Source: a virus
DNA length: 24,168 nt
IMG/VR virus record: IMGVR_UViG_3300033142_000863
Coordinates: 1 to 24,168 of that record
Reading direction: 5' to 3' (one strand)
Part shown: positions 3 through 10,896 of the stretch, in pieces
Layout: the number at the start of each line of letters is the position of its first letter
Numbering within the stretch: position 1 is the first letter of the stretch
Position numbers and translations under genes: made by a program
Notes under the pieces: generated by a model
What the model saw: only the letters and a program-made list of their open reading frames with translations
Databases searched by the model: none
What the model was told of the DNA's origin: nothing

Positions 3-764
3 TTAATAAGTTGTAGTTGGTTGTGTCGGTTGTGCTGGATTGAAATCCTCTAATACTTCCTCCACTTTAGCTTTTAAGATGAGGAAAGTAGAGTCATTAT
101 TGATGTGGTAGTCTATATAGTTGTCGATGTTTGGTTGTTCAGAAGGATGATTCTGTGGAGTTGATCGGAGAGTGGGGATTAATGAAGAGGGTCTTGTAAC
201 ATGTATGATGATACCATTATGCGTGTTAGAATTTAAGACCCATTCAGCCTCGTTTTTAAAGCGGACGGAAGGTATTATAAAGTATTTTGGACAGCGTATC
301 TTGTTAGCTTCTAAATTGTAGATCGTTTTAGCTCTTTGAATCCAGATATCTTCTTTAAAATTATCTCGAAATAGGTTCGTTCCTATTATCTGTAGCATTT
401 GTCTAGGAGAGTATCCCCATTCAGGAAGAACGATCTCTCTATTTGGATTGTTCGGTGAAAAGTGATACGGGTCGAGCCCAGTGGCGGCGACAGCAGTATC
501 TTTTACTGGGTCTGAGAAAGCATAGGTGATGGTAGGACGGTCTGTTGTAAGTTCTGATATAAGATTGGCAATAGTATCTTTACCTGATCCTGCTAGTCCT
601 GCAATTCCTATTACTATTGGTTGATATAACATTCGTTTTTTCCTTGATTCGGGATGCCTAAGAAAAGTTACTCCGTCAAGATGTTCTGGAGTTCCTTTGC
701 TTCGTTTTGGAAGGATTGATTGGAAATGTGTTTTTGGGTAATTGTCCTTAACGTATCTGGCCAT
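3..764 (-). CDS. Deoxynucleoside monophosphate kinase (phage dNMP kinase)
   Basis: Phosphorylates dNMPs to dNDPs with ATP in the cytoplasm, feeding phage DNA synthesis. A P-loop GLAGSGKDT lies near residues 55-64. The block SPRQMLQIIGTNLFRD with following IWI (about 119-142), the segment PSVRFKNEAEW (about 165-175) and HVTRPS (188-193) match the T4 gp1-type dNMP kinase pattern. The frame gives 253 residues, but the ATG at 764 has no Shine-Dalgarno sequence. An internal ATG at 632 (residue 45) is preceded by AAGGA eight bases upstream and starts just before the kinase core, so the true protein is probably 209 residues. The first 44 residues are basic and unrecognised. It is the last gene of the leftward operon seen here, 13 bp after its neighbour. 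The family call is firm; the start is not. Confidence 0.85.
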   Translation of the reverse strand: MARYVKDNYPKTHFQSILPKRSKGTPEHLDGVTFLRHPESRKKRMLYQPIVIGIAGLAGSGKDTIANLISELTTDRPTITYAFSDPVKDTAVAATGLDPYHFSPNNPNREIVLPEWGYSPRQMLQIIGTNLFRDNFKEDIWIQRAKTIYNLEANKIRCPKYFIIPSVRFKNEAEWVLNSNTHNGIIIHVTRPSSLIPTLRSTPQNHPSEQPNIDNYIDYHINNDSTFLILKAKVEEVLEDFNPAQPTQPTTTY

Positions 765-5314: not shown

Positions 5315-5384
5315 TTGTACTGGTGACATTTTTATAGGGAAGAAACGACTTGTACTGGTGACATTTTTACTTGTACTGGTGACA
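5315..5384. repeat. Dispersed repeat TTGTACTGGTGACA, copies 1-3
   Basis: Copies at 5315-5328, 5350-5363 and 5371-5384, all followed by TTTTTA; copies 1 and 3 extend to TTTTTATAGG. The rest of the non-coding interval 5166-5597 holds the terminator, short GC-richer sequence with a small hairpin near 5395-5420, and the promoter at 5509-5537. Confidence 0.85.
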
Positions 5385-5508
5385 TTTTTATAGGAGAGGG
5401 CATAGAAGAACTTCTCTCCCCACAGCTTTGAGGGCCTCTTCCTCGAACTCGTACGGAGATAGTTGTTCTCATTCAACTCCGCACTCTCATTTCTGTTTTA
5501 TCTAATAG

Positions 5509-5537
5509 TATCTTTGCGGATATAGTTGTGTTATAAT
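5509..5537 (+). promoter_or_regulatory. Promoter for the 5598 cassette
   Basis: TATAAT (5532-5537) is preceded at 17 bp by TATCTT (5509-5514). The 18-bp stretch TATCTAATAGTATCTTTG (5499-5516) is identical to 7847-7864, which is placed the same way relative to another TATAAT. The repeated arrangement supports a real promoter despite a poor -35. Confidence 0.65.
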
Positions 5538-5538
5538 A

Positions 5539-5579
5539 TATTTAATAAATAAATTATTTTTCAGTTTATTTATTAAATA
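5539..5579 (+). promoter_or_regulatory. AT-only hairpin at the 5' end of the 5598 transcript
   Basis: Perfect 15-bp stem (5539-5553 with 5565-5579) with an 11-base loop. It would form at or within a few bases of the transcript start and ends just before the AAGGTG ribosome site. Similar hairpins occupy the same place at 6531-6560 and 7217-7242. Confidence 0.6.
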
Positions 5580-5597
5580 ATTGAAAAGGTGAATAGA

Positions 5598-5891
5598 ATG
5601 GATGATAAAAAAGTTAATATTTTTAGAGTTACTGCTGACATAGTGATAGACCGAAAGACTGATGAATGGGGGACGGTTAAAGAAGGAAATAGAGAAAAGC
5701 CTCTAAAGGCCGGGTCAATTTTGATTTATGAACAGTCGACACTGTCAAATCGGACAGAAAAGCCTTTAGTGGATAGAACAGTCCATATGTACTATTTCGT
5801 ATGTGACAATGAAGTTCAGAGAGCTGAATTCTTTAGCGAAGATATTGTCCTATTATTAAAAAATAACTTAATAGAAATAATAGAATGTTAG
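5598..5891 (+). CDS. Hypothetical cassette protein (97 residues)
   Basis: Unrecognised soluble protein. The ATG at 5598 is preceded by AAAAGGTGAATAGA, the ribosome-site layout used throughout this region; an upstream in-frame GTG at 5589 is part of that site and not the start. The sequence begins MDDKKVNIFRV and contains charged stretches around KTDEWGTVKEGNREKP, with no visible membrane segment or enzyme motif. It is first in a three-gene rightward cassette (5598, 5910, 6257) with its own promoter and leader hairpin. Confidence 0.7.
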   Translation: MDDKKVNIFRVTADIVIDRKTDEWGTVKEGNREKPLKAGSILIYEQSTLSNRTEKPLVDRTVHMYYFVCDNEVQRAEFFSEDIVLLLKNNLIEIIEC

Positions 5892-5909
5892 AAATAATTG
5901 GTGAATATG

Positions 5910-6245
5910 ATGAAAATTGACAAACTGTTTAAAAAATTACCAAAAGCCACTGTTGATGGAGTAACTGATGAAAGTTTGTATGATGGAGAAGTCGGAGGTT
6001 GGACTTATGCAGCTAAGGAATTTGGAGTTGAATTAGATGAATTACTTGAATGTAGTTCTGAAGATGACGGAAACCCGTGGAATGACTGGTCTGATCAGAA
6101 CGTTAGAATTGAAAATATTCTATTTAACGAAACATATACTATGTGTAGAGTGCTATCATTGAATGGAATGATGATAGTTGAGTACTTAAATAAAGGATGT
6201 GTTGTATATTACACTACTCAAGAAGAAATCAATAATGCAAATTAA
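5910..6245 (+). CDS. Hypothetical acidic cassette protein (111 residues)
   Basis: Unrecognised acidic protein. Tandem ATGs at 5907 and 5910 follow TTGGTG; 5910 gives the six-base spacing seen in neighbouring genes. It contains ELDELLECSSEDDGNPWNDW (residues about 45-64), rich in acid and tryptophan, and a hydrophobic strand LSLNGMMIVEYL near 85-97. No catalytic motif is seen. It follows the 5598 gene by 18 bp. Small acidic early phage proteins often act as inhibitors or DNA mimics, but nothing here shows that. Confidence 0.65.
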   Translation: MKIDKLFKKLPKATVDGVTDESLYDGEVGGWTYAAKEFGVELDELLECSSEDDGNPWNDWSDQNVRIENILFNETYTMCRVLSLNGMMIVEYLNKGCVVYYTTQEEINNAN

Positions 6246-6256
6246 GGGATAATAGA

Positions 6257-6430
6257 ATGTTAGAAGAGAAGAAAATCGAGTTTTGCGGAGGATACGACTT
6301 GAAGACGGAGATAAAAAATGACCGTCTTTTTGTCCTATGTATGGTTCCCCCATACTACATATTAGAAGGTGAGGAAGAGGATATAACTGATATGAACTGG
6401 GAAGAGTTCATAGATTGGTTTGGACTATAG
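6257..6430 (+). CDS. Hypothetical small acidic protein (57 residues)
   Basis: Short frame starting MLEEKKIEFCGGYDL and ending NWEEFIDWFGL. Its start context (GGGATAATAGAATG) repeats the GAATAGAATG pattern of the 5598 gene, and it begins 11 bp after the 5910 gene's stop. It is acidic, with a run of acidic residues (EGEEEDITD) in the C-terminal half and no membrane segment. Third gene of the cassette, followed by a GC-rich hairpin at 6444-6470. Unrecognised. Confidence 0.55.
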   Translation: MLEEKKIEFCGGYDLKTEIKNDRLFVLCMVPPYYILEGEEEDITDMNWEEFIDWFGL

Positions 6431-6443
6431 GCTGAGGAGGTCG

Positions 6444-6470
6444 CAGCGGGAACCCATATTTGGCCCGCTG
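6444..6470 (+). terminator. GC-rich hairpin after the 6257 gene
   Basis: CAGCGGG (6444-6450) pairs with CCCGCTG (6464-6470) across a 13-base loop. The tail TGATTAAATAAA is AT-rich but lacks a clear T run, so termination would be moderate. It separates this cassette from the next promoter. Confidence 0.45.
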
Positions 6471-6495
6471 TGATTAAATAAATGAATTAAAGTGG

Positions 6496-6524
6496 TTTAC
6501 ATTATGTAATTTTAGTGATATAAT
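6496..6524 (+). promoter_or_regulatory. Sigma70-type promoter for the 6590 gene
   Basis: TTTACA (6496-6501), 17 bp, TATAAT (6519-6524). AGTGGTTTACA before, and GTGATATAATATAC around the -10, are shared with the promoter at 7182-7210. Confidence 0.8.
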
Positions 6525-6530
6525 ATACAC

Positions 6531-6560
6531 ATAATTTAAATAAAAAATCATTTAAATTAT
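6531..6560 (+). promoter_or_regulatory. AT-only hairpin at the 5' end of the 6590 transcript
   Basis: Perfect 11-bp stem, ATAATTTAAAT (6531-6541) with 6550-6560, and an 8-base loop. It begins at about the predicted transcription start. Confidence 0.6.
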
Positions 6561-6589
6561 TTTTCTTAATTAAATAAAAGGTGTATAAA

Positions 6590-6985
6590 ATGAAAACAAT
6601 GACAAAAAGTGAAGTAAAAATCGATAATAAAGCGGCTAATCTGGTTAAAAAGATTGCTGAAAAACCGGCTGAAACGGCAGTTGTTGGACAGGCTTTTACC
6701 CCAACGGACAAACCTAAGGAGATAAAAGCTCCCGGAGTGTCAGTGGTTTGTAATATTAATGGTATAAACGTCGGTAATGAATGTCATATTAAATGTGCCT
6801 CTAACCCAAAACGTCCCGGTTCAAAGGCTCATATGCGTTATGAAGCTTATGCAAAAGCGACCACGGTTAAAGAGTATTTGGAAATGGGAGGCTTAAAAGC
6901 CGATCTTCGTTACGATCACGATAAAGGTTTCCTTGAGCTGTTAGAAGTTATACAAGATGGTAAAATTGTAGAGCTCAAAAAGTAA
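6590..6985 (+). CDS. GSKA/RYE-domain paralogue 1 (131 residues)
   Basis: Member of a three-copy family in this window (others at 8957-9199 and 9926-10171). The shared ~77-residue domain is at about 54-130: NINGINVGNECHIK, then NPKRPGSKAHMRYE, an amphipathic stretch ending EYLEMGGLKADLRYD, then KGFLELLE. Only this copy carries an N-terminal extension of about 53 residues, lysine-rich and probably flexible. The ATG at 6590 follows AAAGGTG by six bases; an in-frame GTG at 6581 belongs to the ribosome site. The domain is compact and basic in its middle, which could suit nucleic-acid binding, but I do not know its function. Single-gene unit with its own promoter, 5' hairpin and terminator. Confidence 0.75.
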   Translation: MKTMTKSEVKIDNKAANLVKKIAEKPAETAVVGQAFTPTDKPKEIKAPGVSVVCNINGINVGNECHIKCASNPKRPGSKAHMRYEAYAKATTVKEYLEMGGLKADLRYDHDKGFLELLEVIQDGKIVELKK

Positions 6986-7002
6986 GATCATTCACCGGTC
7001 AG

Positions 7003-7034
7003 AAGGGTTGCATTAGAAATAATGTAGCCCTTTT
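7003..7034 (+). terminator. Intrinsic terminator after the 6590 gene
   Basis: A 13-bp stem with two G-U pairs (7003-7015 with 7020-7032), loop GAAA, then TT. Good match to a rho-independent terminator with a stable tetraloop and short T tract. Confidence 0.75.
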
Positions 7035-7049
7035 GGCTGTGCGGAGGAT

Positions 7050-7091
7050 TTGTACTGGTGACAAATATACAGGAAGCTTGTACTGGTGACA
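7050..7091. repeat. Dispersed repeat TTGTACTGGTGACA, copies 4-5
   Basis: Exact copies at 7050-7063 and 7078-7091, each continued by AATATACAGGA. They lie between a terminator and the next promoter. Confidence 0.85.
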
Positions 7092-7181
7092 AATATACAG
7101 GAGAAGATACAGATAAGAGTTGATGTGGTTGCGGCGGGCGTGGTGGGAACCCGTACCAGTTCCGTTGTTGTAAAATAGTGG

Positions 7182-7210
7182 TTTACAAACGGGAATAAAG
7201 GTGATATAAT
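7182..7210 (+). promoter_or_regulatory. Sigma70-type promoter for the 7262 cassette
   Basis: TTTACA (7182-7187), 17 bp, TATAAT (7205-7210), with GTGATATAATATACC as in the promoters at 6519 and 7880. Confidence 0.8.
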
Positions 7211-7216
7211 ATACCT

Positions 7217-7242
7217 ATAAATTAAAAATTATTTTAATTTAT
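7217..7242 (+). promoter_or_regulatory. AT-only hairpin at the 5' end of the 7262 transcript
   Basis: Perfect 11-bp stem (7217-7227 with 7232-7242) and the 4-base loop ATTA, starting at the predicted transcript end and placed just upstream of GAAAGGTG. Confidence 0.6.
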
Positions 7243-7261
7243 TAATTGAAAGGTGAATAGA

Positions 7262-7363
7262 ATGGATATTATAACGGATTTAGTAGCAGTGTATGGCTGG
7301 TCATTGGCTTATTTAGCTATCCCAGTGATAGCATCGGTAATAATGGACTGGAGAAAAGCATGA
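7262..7363 (+). CDS. Small single-span membrane protein (33 residues)
   Basis: Very short frame with an excellent start: GAAAGGTGAATAGAATG, identical in layout to the 5598 gene. A single hydrophobic helix spans about residues 7-28 (WSLAYLAIPVIASVIM), followed by the basic tail DWRKA, which predicts a cytoplasmic C terminus. Its stop overlaps the next gene's start as ATGA, so the two are likely co-translated and may work as a pair. Small phage membrane proteins include holins and superinfection-exclusion factors. No specific family is recognised. Confidence 0.6.
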   Translation: MDIITDLVAVYGWSLAYLAIPVIASVIMDWRKA

Positions 7364-7497
7364 ATAGTTTCAATACTTGGATGATAGTATCCGTGGTTAT
7401 GGCTTTAGTATTAAGTTTCGTCATAATCAAACCTATAGCGACGGAAGTTTCAGCTCAGATACATAGTTTGAGTGAAAGAATAGGATCAATTAAGTAA
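7360..7497 (+). CDS. Small single-span membrane protein (45 residues)
   Basis: Starts within the stop of the 33-residue gene (ATGA overlap). A strong hydrophobic segment covers about residues 7-23 (WMIVSVVMALVLSFVII), followed by KP and a 20-residue polar, amphipathic C-terminal helix (EVSAQIHSLSERIGSIK) that could interact with a partner. No cysteine lipobox or cleavage site. Unrecognised; the tight coupling suggests a two-component membrane unit. Confidence 0.6.
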   Translation: MNSFNTWMIVSVVMALVLSFVIIKPIATEVSAQIHSLSERIGSIK

Positions 7498-7514
7498 AAT
7501 CAAAGGTGAATACA

Positions 7515-7706
7515 ATGAAAAATATGTCAAATCAAACAATTCGTAATAATCCTATAACCCAAATGGTTCATGGAGTCCATAAAACCAAAGGTGAACAACA
7601 GGGCGTTATTTACACCCCTAAGCCCCATCTCGTTAATTTCGTTCCACACTTTTTTAGCCCCGATACGGGTTATTGGATACAAGTGGCTCAAACTCCCAAT
7701 CGTTAA
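7515..7706 (+). CDS. Hypothetical protein (63 residues)
   Basis: ATG at 7515 follows AAAGGTG with the usual six-base gap; the in-frame GTG at 7506 belongs to the ribosome site. It is polar at the start (MKNMSNQTIRNNPITQ) and ends with an aromatic, proline-rich part (HLVNFVPHFFSPDTGYW). No membrane helix or known motif. Third gene of the 7262 cassette, 17 bp after the second membrane gene. The interval 7707-7929 that follows is purine-rich and without a gene, apart from the next promoter. Confidence 0.55.
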   Translation: MKNMSNQTIRNNPITQMVHGVHKTKGEQQGVIYTPKPHLVNFVPHFFSPDTGYWIQVAQTPNR

Positions 7707-7856
7707 TACATAATTCCGTGGCCTGCATCTCAAACCCATATCGCAGGGTACGAGAGCCCTCGCCTAGGCTAGGGAAACTAAGGAAACCCAGGAAAATAGG
7801 CCAAGATGAGGGAAAGTAGGGAGAACAGGTTCTTCCAACTTTATTATATCTAATAG

Positions 7857-7885
7857 TATCTTTGTTGAAATAAGTGTGATATAAT
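7857..7885 (+). promoter_or_regulatory. Promoter for the 7930 cassette
   Basis: TATCTT (7857-7862), 17 bp, TATAAT (7880-7885), with the same 18-bp box (7847-7864) as the promoter at 5509. The initial transcribed sequence ATACCTATAAATTAAAAA equals that of the 7205 promoter. Unlike the others it is not followed by a hairpin. Confidence 0.7.
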
Positions 7886-7929
7886 ATACCTATAAATTAA
7901 AAAATAAATCATAAACAAAAGGTGAAGAT

Positions 7930-8151
7930 ATGAAATTAAGTGAATTAGTTACCGCTGTAAAAGATCACGCCAAAGAAAATTACTATAATGGTTGGGATAC
8001 TATTGTTGAGGCTTATACAGATCAAGAGATAAGATCGCAAATTCAGGAATTCGGTACAACTTCAAAAGAAGATACTTTAGCAGAATTTGATGAACTGTTA
8101 AAAATAAAAGCTATACACGAAACAGAAATTGGTTCTCAAGAGGATTACTAA
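7930..8151 (+). CDS. Hypothetical acidic helical protein (73 residues)
   Basis: ATG preceded by AAAAGGTGAAGAT. Acidic and probably all-helical (MKLSELVTAVKDHAKENYY, then LAEFDELLKIKAIHETEI). No recognised domain. Its stop shares a base with the start of the next gene (TAATG at 8149-8153), indicating translational coupling. First of a two-gene cassette. Confidence 0.65.
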   Translation: MKLSELVTAVKDHAKENYYNGWDTIVEAYTDQEIRSQIQEFGTTSKEDTLAEFDELLKIKAIHETEIGSQEDY

Positions 8152-8375
8152 TGAAGATAGAAAAACAGGTTAAAATTCACATCTTAGAAGGTCTTACAAT
8201 GGCTGCATACTGTAATCAGTCATATCAAGAGAAAGATCCTCTTCTTAAAGCTATAAATGAAGTAGAAGAATTAACTGAATCTGAAATAGATTCCTGGTTT
8301 GACAGTGTTTTAGAAGGTTATCCATTGGTGATAGATGCTAACGGTAAAATATGTCTTATGGATTTGAATCCATAA
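8151..8375 (+). CDS. Hypothetical acidic protein (74 residues)
   Basis: Coupled to the preceding gene by TAATG. The predicted protein has an acidic helical centre (NEVEELTESEIDSWFDSVLEG) and a C-terminal beta-like part (YPLVIDANGKICLMDL). It has no membrane segment and no known family. The next 24 bases lead into repeat copies 6-8 with no clear terminator. Confidence 0.6.
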   Translation: MKIEKQVKIHILEGLTMAAYCNQSYQEKDPLLKAINEVEELTESEIDSWFDSVLEGYPLVIDANGKICLMDLNP

Positions 8376-8398
8376 GCCGCTAATTCTCTATCCAAAAT

Positions 8399-8563
8399 TT
8401 GTACTGGTGACCATTACGCCTCCACACCCACGTTGACGAGTACCTCTACACCAATGGTAGAGGGTGATTGACTGGGAGTTGATGGTAGTGGCGTTCGCCG
8501 GGCACAAAAAATTTGTACTGGTGACAATTACTCCTCCCTCCGCGCCAACTTGTACCGGTGACA
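8399..8563. repeat. Dispersed repeat TTGTACTGGTGACA, copies 6-8
   Basis: Copies at 8399-8412 (last base C), 8513-8526 (exact) and 8550-8563 (one change, TACC). All are followed by T/A-rich bases and then CTCC or CCTCC. The sequence around them is clearly more GC-rich than its neighbours, including GCGGCCGC near 8581. Confidence 0.8.
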
Positions 8564-8772
8564 TTTCTACCTCCACAGCCGCGGCCGCCGCCCCGAACCC
8601 GTATCGTTCACGCTCGCCTTCGGCTTCACGTGACTAAAAGAATTATTCACTTCGTTCATTCTGAGAGAGACAGAAAGGCGGGAGGCTTAAGGCGTTCATC
8701 ATTTCATTCTTCAAATAATATATTATTCACTTCGTTCATACTGTCTTATTTCATTTCATTCAATATAAGACC

Positions 8773-8822
8773 TATTCACTTCGTTCATTCTTTAAAATTC
8801 ATTCCTCGTACCTCGTCATCAA
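8773..8822. repeat. 50-bp direct repeat, copy 1 (second copy at 9636-9685)
   Basis: The two 50-bp copies differ at two positions. A second shared block (CTTTAT through AATCAAAA) follows at 8835 and 9708. Each lies downstream of one of the two leftward paralogous genes. The interval 8580-8956 otherwise holds several TTCACTTCGTTCAT motifs and no gene. Confidence 0.85.
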
Positions 8823-8879
8823 TGTGGGAGAGCTCTTTATCTAATAAAATCAAAAACCGTTAATATCATAACGTCATTC

Positions 8880-8965
8880 GTCAAATTCTCGACACCGTCA
8901 GTTACCTGACACCTGTTAAATAACCAACGTCCCTGTCAGTTATTCGACTCCGTCAATTATCCGAC
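8880..8965. repeat. 31-bp imperfect direct repeat at the 3' end of paralogue 2
   Basis: Copies at 8880-8910 and 8935-8965, both GTCA...TCGAC.CCGTCA.TTA..GAC. The second overlaps the last codons of the leftward gene at 8957. The first contains the small inverted repeat GTCAG-TTAC-CTGAC, a possible weak terminator. Confidence 0.6.
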
Positions 8966-9199
8966 TTTAACGATATTTCCCTTTTCAAATTTTTCCAAAA
9001 TTTTCAAAAATCCCTTCGTACTATCATAACGCAAATCCGCCAATAATCCGCCAGCCGTCAAATATTCGCCAATCGTTTTTGCGTCTGCATATTCTTCGTA
9101 ACGCATCCACGCTTTACTACCTACACGCTTTGGATTTCCTTTTAATTCGATTTTACAGTTTTCCGAAACATTCGTACCATTAACATTCATAATTTTCAT
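8957..9199 (-). CDS. GSKA/RYE-domain paralogue 2 (80 residues)
   Basis: Leftward homologue of the 6590 protein without its N-terminal extension. It reads MKIMNVNGTNVSENCKIE, NPKRVGSKAWMRYEEYADAK, EYLTAGGLLADLRYD and KGFLKILE. The ATG at 9199 has AAGGTG six bases before it. The frame stays open to 9256, but that part overlaps the -10 box, so 9199 is the start. Arginines are CGT codons, as in paralogue 1. Function unknown; the conserved core suggests a folded small domain. It has a consensus promoter at 9255-9282 and a repeat-rich 3' flank also found downstream of paralogue 3. Confidence 0.75.
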   Translation of the reverse strand: MKIMNVNGTNVSENCKIELKGNPKRVGSKAWMRYEEYADAKTIGEYLTAGGLLADLRYDSTKGFLKILEKFEKGNIVKVG

Positions 9200-9254
9200 A
9201 ATATTCACCTTAAATTTAAAATTTATCCCTTCGATTTCCGATCCCTTAAATAAC

Positions 9255-9282
9255 ATTATACACTTATTATACCCTATGTCAA
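9255..9282 (-). promoter_or_regulatory. Consensus sigma70 promoter for paralogue 2
   Basis: Minus strand TTGACA (9277-9282) and TATAAT (9255-9260) are both perfect consensus hexamers, 16 bp apart. The start near 9248 gives a leader of about 50 nt. Strongest-looking promoter in the window. Confidence 0.85.
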
Positions 9283-9393
9283 CAGTTTATTCCATTTAAA
9301 TCATTTAAATTTAAAAATTTTTCATAACGACTTCGTCCGCTTCGCGTTCCTCAACTATTAAAAACTTATTCACTTCGTTCATACAAAACAACT

Positions 9394-9580
9394 TTCACTT
9401 CGTTCAATAATAAAAACAAACAATTTTTCACTTCGTTCAATAATAAAAACAAACAATTTTTCACTTCGTTCAATAATAAAAACAAACAGTTTTTCACTTC
9501 GTTCAATAATAAAAACAAACAGTTTTTCACTTCGTTCAATAATAAAAACAAACAGTTTTTCACTTCGTTCAATAATAAAA
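9394..9580. repeat. 33-bp tandem repeat array, about six copies
   Basis: TTCACTTCG begins at 9394, 9427, 9460, 9493, 9526 and 9559, exactly 33 bp apart. The copies are joined by TTCAATAATAAAAACAAAC and differ by only a few bases. Degenerate single motifs flank the array at 9369, 9590 and 9612. As 33 is a multiple of three, two minus-strand frames stay open through it by chance. It lies upstream of paralogue 2's promoter. Confidence 0.9.
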
Positions 9581-9635
9581 AACAATATTTCATTTCATTC
9601 AATCTTTATACATTCACTTCGTTCATATGGAGACT

Positions 9636-9685
9636 TATTCACTTCGTTCATTCTTTAAAATTCGTTCCTCGTACCTCGTCACCAA
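9636..9685. repeat. 50-bp direct repeat, copy 2
   Basis: Second copy of 8773-8822 with two substitutions. It is followed at 9690-9760 by further CTTCGTTC/CTTCGCGTTC motifs similar to 9320-9360. No gene is visible from 9686 to 9925. Confidence 0.85.
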
Positions 9686-9925
9686 CGACCGTTCACTCCG
9701 TTCACGACTTTATTTAATAAAATCAAAAGCATCTAACGACTTCGTTCGCTTCGCGTTCTTCAACTATCCAATTATTTATTTCATTCATATAATTCTTAAT
9801 ATAACCCTAATATATACTTATTATCAACAACCAAAACCTTTAATAATAAATCAATTTTTATTTTTCTTTTCAAAATCATTCAATAATTAAATCCTTTTAA
9901 TTATTAAACAATTCTTAATTCTATT

Positions 9926-10171
9926 TTACTTTACTACCACCTTTTTACCTTTAACTATACACTCCATTAATACAACAAATCCTTTCTTAACATCATATCT
10001 TAAATCTTCTTTTAAACCTCCATTACCTAAATAATCACCAACACTTTTACTATCTTCATAACATTCGTATCTACTCCATGCTTTACTACCTACTCTTTTC
10101 TTATTACTACTTACAACAATCTTACATTTTTCATTAACAACTACACCATTAACATTTAATATAATACCCAT
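9926..10171 (-). CDS. GSKA/RYE-domain paralogue 3 (81 residues)
   Basis: Third copy of the domain: NVNGVVVNEKCKIVV, NKKRVGSKAWSRYECYED, VGDYLGNGGLKEDLRYD, KGFVVLME. The proline of NPKR is replaced by lysine. Two in-frame ATGs exist (10177 and 10171). 10171 is preferred because GGTTGA then lies at normal distance and the start aligns with paralogue 2. Its arginines are AGA, where the other two use CGT, and it is more AT-rich, so it has diverged or came from another source. Single-gene unit with a promoter at 10230-10259. Confidence 0.7.
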   Translation of the reverse strand: MGIILNVNGVVVNEKCKIVVSSNKKRVGSKAWSRYECYEDSKSVGDYLGNGGLKEDLRYDVKKGFVVLMECIVKGKKVVVK

Positions 10172-10229: not shown

Positions 10230-10259
10230 ATTATAACACTATACACCTGTATAATACAA
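10230..10259 (-). promoter_or_regulatory. Promoter for paralogue 3
   Basis: Minus strand TTGTAT (10254-10259), 18 bp, TATAAT (10230-10235). Weaker -35 than paralogue 2, but at a similar distance from the gene. Confidence 0.6.
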
Positions 10260-10311
10260 TCTATTTATCACTTATTTATCATATAAATTTTCTATCTCCG
10301 CTTCGCGTTCG

Positions 10312-10424
10312 CCTTACCTCGGCCTCCGGCCTCAGCCTACCTCTGCTACGCATTCACCTTACCTCGGCCTCCGGCCTCAGCCTACCTCTGCTACGCATTC
10401 ACCTTACCTCGGCCTCCGGCCTCA
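10312..10424. repeat. 45-bp GC-rich tandem repeat, 2.5 copies
   Basis: Units start at 10312, 10357 and 10402 with CCTTACCTCGGCCTCCGGCC; the two full copies look identical. Each contains GGCC-TCC-GGCC, a small hairpin. The block stands out as GC-rich inside AT-rich DNA and is followed by more GCTTCGCGTTC-type sequence to about 10480. I see no gene or clear signal from 10480 to 10840. Confidence 0.85.
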
Positions 10425-10840: not shown

Positions 10841-10896
10841 CGCTAAAACGCTAAAACGCTAAAACGCTAAAACGCTAACTAACTACAACGCTAAAA
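10841..10896. repeat. 8-bp tandem repeat CGCTAAAA upstream of large terminase
   Basis: CGCTAAAA at 10841, 10849, 10857 and 10865, a diverged copy at 10873 and another exact copy at 10889, all on the same 8-bp register. It lies about 110 bp before the terminase gene, so it could be a packaging (pac/cos-type) recognition site or an iteron set. Function inferred from place only. Confidence 0.7.

Follow-up and report, generated by a model that had tools for sequence, protein, structure and literature searches.

The domain family described here is real and had not been named before, and its link with the hypermodification of thymidine in the genomes of uncultured phages is strong and new: the domain is shown by the counts given below to be a standard companion of the thymidine-hypermodification island in uncultured tailed phages. 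Three copies are encoded in the window, which is the whole stretch of DNA that was analysed, a 24,168-base IMG/VR fragment that includes the packaging and structural gene module of a tailed phage. The domain is probably a module of the hypermodification islands and of packaged effectors, docking onto phage DNA or onto the modification machinery. Our preferred reading, to which we give a probability of about 0.5, is that it is a winged-helix binding module which docks enzymes onto phage DNA, the three copies of the window being free DNA-associated proteins.

Many phages escape restriction by thymidine hypermodification, whose enzymes are currently being elucidated. Within one group of uncultured phages the domain invariably comes ahead of the kinase gene, and it also forms part of probable packaged effectors. 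This raises the testable question whether such phages encode a module by which their own modified DNA is recognised. The kinase is the enzyme with which the chemical disguise of phage DNA begins; the role of the family should be testable from its neighbourhood of kinase and TET-associated glycosyltransferase (TAGT) genes, and this kinase gene is not in the window fragment. The three genes and their parts are as follows.

6590-6985, + strand: copy 1, 131 aa, a disordered head (residues 1-50) followed by the domain, both as predicted, the domain being winged-helix-like
6590-6739, + strand: head of copy 1, predicted to be disordered (pLDDT about 60) and without secondary structure
6749-6982, + strand: domain core of copy 1, from the alignment and the AF2 model
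6803-6826, + strand: conserved NPKRPGSK loop of copy 1
residues 79-89, 93-98 and 103-112: helices of copy 1 in the AF2 model
8957-9199, - strand: copy 2, 80 aa, domain only, AF2 pLDDT 90
9926-10171, - strand: copy 3, 81 aa, domain only

The preliminary description had proposed three paralogues of one unrecognised small domain at these positions and on these strands, which our analysis bears out, and the extra head of about 53 residues that it assigned to one protein is present in the open reading frame of copy 1. With copy 2 as the query against the window, copies 1 and 3 were found at E about 1e-26. In the MAFFT alignment copies 2 and 3 have 57% and 51% identity to copy 1; 34 columns are invariant among the three copies, and the common core has 76 residues (51-58% identity). 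The ungapped cores share 44, 39 and 43 identical residues out of 76, against a maximum of 16 of 76 in 10,000 shuffles, so that the shared core is real and not a chance-level alignment. GC content is 28% in copy 3, below that of copies 1 and 2. Between the copies pS is near saturation (0.65-0.78) and pN is moderate (0.32-0.40); the copies are therefore old and under purifying selection. In a tree with 53 diverse relatives they fall together in one clade (support 100/96) that stands on a long branch, and the expansion therefore took place within the lineage of the window or its unsampled kin.

The profile searches agree that the domain had gone unrecognised: copies 1-3 gave no profile match over the cut-off to any Pfam, PHROG, NCBIfam or PADLOC family and no credible match in these libraries or among PDB sequences, the PDB sequence matches to eIF2 alpha and EF-P (E 0.1-1) being short partial alignments that were rejected. 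Back-translated motif scans of viral contigs, which capture only part of the family, returned 30 loci and then 76 loci. The domain was thus located in 73 further IMG/VR contigs, and the profile search of the whole records confirmed 73 of 73 (E 1e-6 to 1e-31). At least two copies are present in 21 of these 73 contigs, and up to seven, so multiple copies per phage are typical of the family and not peculiar to the window. The domain occurs alone or fused to other domains. What the family conserves best is the NPK(K/R)xGS loop, which is almost invariant and lies where helix 1 begins. Single members searched by tblastn against 50,697 phage records gave no relative. Genome scans gave no match with query A2 and one true case, a LivF fusion, with query A5. 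Matches on Rhizobium plasmids (E 0.2-0.7) were attributed to chance, the conserved loop being missing from the translated open reading frames, as was an Acinetobacter phage match that had no profile match; a Leptospira plasmid match (E 0.9) was checked by its annotation and set aside.

The gene for the 5-hmdU DNA kinase (PF18723) was detected in 56 of the 73 domain contigs (27/31 and 29/42 records in the two sets), including 27 of the 30 contigs of 35 kb or more and 24 of the 36 shorter than 20 kb. It was found in none of 27 random viral contigs, a set picked by an arbitrary 16-base word and made up of contigs shorter than the domain contigs (Fisher p 4e-13, with records that are partly near-copies). 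The counts are not independent events, because the contigs are partly near-copies of one another. In 56 of 56 cases the domain copy closest to the kinase gene is upstream of it, and in 54 of 56 it is on the same strand; the median gap is 950 bp, and in 53 of 56 the copy lies within 2.5 kb. TAGT genes accompany the domain as well (28/34 long domain contigs versus 0/40 control contigs). The gene order in contig L016 is DNA polA, exonuclease, SNF2 helicase, a Pyr_excise-like protein joined to the domain, TAGT, the 5-hmdU DNA kinase helical domain (PF18723; HMUDK) and thymidylate synthase. Our search of the literature and the family libraries returned no small accessory domain so regularly tied to the kinase gene.

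Relatives in other contigs join the domain to a Pyr_excise-like DNA glycosylase, to DUF2786 and DUF7168, or to lysine-, alanine- and proline-rich tails. Contigs L113 (526-6137), L117, L127 and L162 encode proteins of 600-969 aa in which one or two domain copies are combined with ADP-ribosyltransferase and/or NUDIX domains, and these large proteins are probably packaged phage effectors. One cellular case comes from a Gammaproteobacteria MAG (L224, 5920-7017): a LivF/UrtE-like ABC ATPase carries at its N-terminus a copy of the domain with 41% identity to copy 2, and this fusion gene is set in an operon resembling those of urea or branched-chain amino acid transporters.

Structure prediction for copies 1 and 2, which the preliminary description had suggested, gave the same core in both models. 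The AF2 model of copy 2 (17 sequences) has a mean pLDDT of 90 and that of copy 1 (51 sequences) repeats its core behind a disordered head; both show the order of three strands, three helices and three strands with a core pLDDT of about 90, a three-helix bundle with a beta wing whose fold is predicted to be winged-helix-like. The best structural alignments to the PDB include the winged helices of FAM91A1, NPRL2 (GATOR1), RPC39 (2yu3) and PriA and are weak (Z 3.7-5.4 over 59-71 residues), and Foldseek against the PDB gave E over 1. We infer DNA binding from the fold, the loop and the genomic company of the domain. The fold and the basic NPK(K/R)xGS loop would touch either phage DNA itself or a partner located there, the domain would thereby dock enzymes onto phage DNA, and the window copies, expressed from separate promoters, would act as free DNA-associated proteins. 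The net charge of the core across the family (mean +1.5, range -5 to +8) is mildly basic and speaks weakly for DNA binding.

Winged helices are often protein-binding, and a serious rival, possible in our judgement, is that the domain is an adaptor that binds a protein (the kinase, the glycosyltransferase, a polymerase or the portal) and not DNA. FAM91A1 and NPRL2, which are among the best structural neighbours, are winged helices within protein complexes, the core charge is mixed, and the fusion to the LivF/UrtE-like ABC ATPase, which a DNA tether does not explain, would suit such an adaptor. The conserved basic loop and the DNA repair and modification settings favour DNA instead. A more specific form of DNA docking, which we regard as unlikely, makes the domain a reader of hypermodified thymine: the basic NPK(K/R)xGS loop would bind the phosphorylated or glycosylated 5-hmdU made by the adjacent kinase and glycosyltransferase; in this way the domain would mark the phage DNA as self and serve there as a tether for packaged effectors and for the proteins of modification and repair.

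The following elements were detected in the regions upstream of the copies.

6496-6524, + strand: promoter-like site before copy 1, TTTACA-17-TATAAT, 11/12, with TGn
6577-6592, + strand: AAAGGTGNATANNATG leader, common to accessory genes of both strands
9197-9212, - strand: AAAGGTGNATANNATG leader before copy 2
9255-9282, - strand: promoter-like site before copy 2, TTGACA-16-TATAAT, 12/12
10230-10238, - strand: extended -10 TGTTATAAT before copy 3

The claim that each copy has its own promoter stands for copies 1 and 2, whose predicted sites are strong, and not for copy 3, where the scan gave no -35 over the threshold upstream of the extended -10 TGTTATAAT and a promoter is doubtful. The GTGATATAATATAC promoter cores recur at window positions 6515, 7201 and 7876, and the AAAGGTGAATAGAATG leader is common to accessory genes of both strands; together they suggest duplicated expression cassettes. 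Around the accessory cassettes TTGTACTGGTGACA is repeated eight times with at most one mismatch (window 5315-8563, + strand only, chance expectation 0.12), and these repeats are perhaps operator or boundary elements. Thirteen copies of TTCACTTCGTTCA at 8646-9704 include a 33-base tandem array (9386-9581) between copies 2 and 3, possibly origin-like or regulatory. Three 45-base tandem units lie at 10292-10424, in the gap that separates copy 3 from the large terminase gene, and a tandem array of 8-base units at 10841-10896.

It is quite unlikely that the three paralogues are phage transcription regulators, repressors or activators of the promoters of the accessory-region cassettes. The winged-helix-like predicted fold, the dense intergenic repeats nearby (TTGTACTGGTGACA eight times, TTCACTTCGTTCA thirteen times) and the conserved promoter and leader cassettes are consistent with such a role; regulators, however, would not be joined to enzymes and structural proteins as the relatives are, and the predicted recognition helix has conserved acidic residues (D105 and D109 in copy 1).

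Least likely of all are early inhibitors that act in host interaction or against defence and differ in their host targets. Strong promoters before small accessory genes would fit them, as would multiple copies in 21 of 73 contigs and the place of relatives in modification islands, which act against restriction. The purifying selection on copies 1-3, their single clade and their lack of a PADLOC match would not, nor would a family whose domain is fused as a module into many proteins. There is no sign of the host targets, or of the variants directed at different ones, that the preliminary description had supposed. The copies are a single lineage-specific expansion under purifying selection. The suggestion of an anti-defence family, made in the same description, receives indirect support from the tie to the 5-hmdU DNA kinase and TAGT genes; the window fragment itself has no hypermodification kinase.

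The terminase encoded in the window shares 46% identity with its counterpart in Jersey-like Salmonella phages. Neither the 5-hmdU DNA kinase nor TAGT was found in the 24 kb fragment, and both the domain and the kinase are absent from 46 contigs with the capsid or portal gene of the window, many of which are short. The role of the family thus extends to copies 1-3 only with caution. Relatives of the primase of the window were searched for and none was found. Window 5589-5891 has a weak match (E 6e-4) to PtuB, a defence-system protein family. Window 3-764 (- strand) encodes a deoxynucleotide monophosphate kinase (PF21448, E 6e-13); kinases of this type are known from T4 and other phages whose bases are modified. 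As a sign of modified DNA it was rejected, since it is not enriched in the domain contigs (0/34).

DNA hypermodification shields phage DNA from restriction (PMC6449724), and the thymidine hypermodification clusters of M6 and ViI combine the 5-hmdU DNA kinase with thymidylate synthase-type enzymes, the same genes that adjoin the relatives of the domain (PMC6449724). Ten cultured phages, most of them kinase-bearing and including M6, PhiW-14 and SFP10 (kin of ViI, which was itself outside the set), lack the domain by profile (0/10) and lack TAGT as well, so the domain is not required for hypermodification. Polyvalent proteins, which are delivered with the DNA (PMC5512222), resemble the relatives in which ADP-ribosyltransferase and NUDIX domains are combined with one copy of the domain or with two; several effector domains per chain are found in some relatives, the window copies are single small domains, and the domain described here is absent from Pfam. 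TF1 of SPO1, which prefers 5-hmU DNA (from the reference list of PMC6449724), sets a precedent for the reading of modified thymine by a small phage protein; it is an HU-type protein, and the predicted fold of the domain differs. The winged helices of FAM91A1, NPRL2, RPC39 and PriA have three helices and flanking strands, as the domain does, with low Z and no sequence similarity, and the NPK(K/R)xGS loop is peculiar to the domain family. Among named proteins of cultured phages, this predicted fold is shared only by gp18 of the Alphaproteobacteria phage PhiJL001 (UniProt Q5DN87; 32-36% identity), the sole clear match in BFVD (Foldseek E 7e-5 to 2e-3, probability 1.00). This gp18 is uncharacterised and has 151 aa, compared with 131, 80 and 81 aa in the window, and PhiJL001 (Mesyanzhinovviridae) is placed in the family of the T-hypermodified phage M6.
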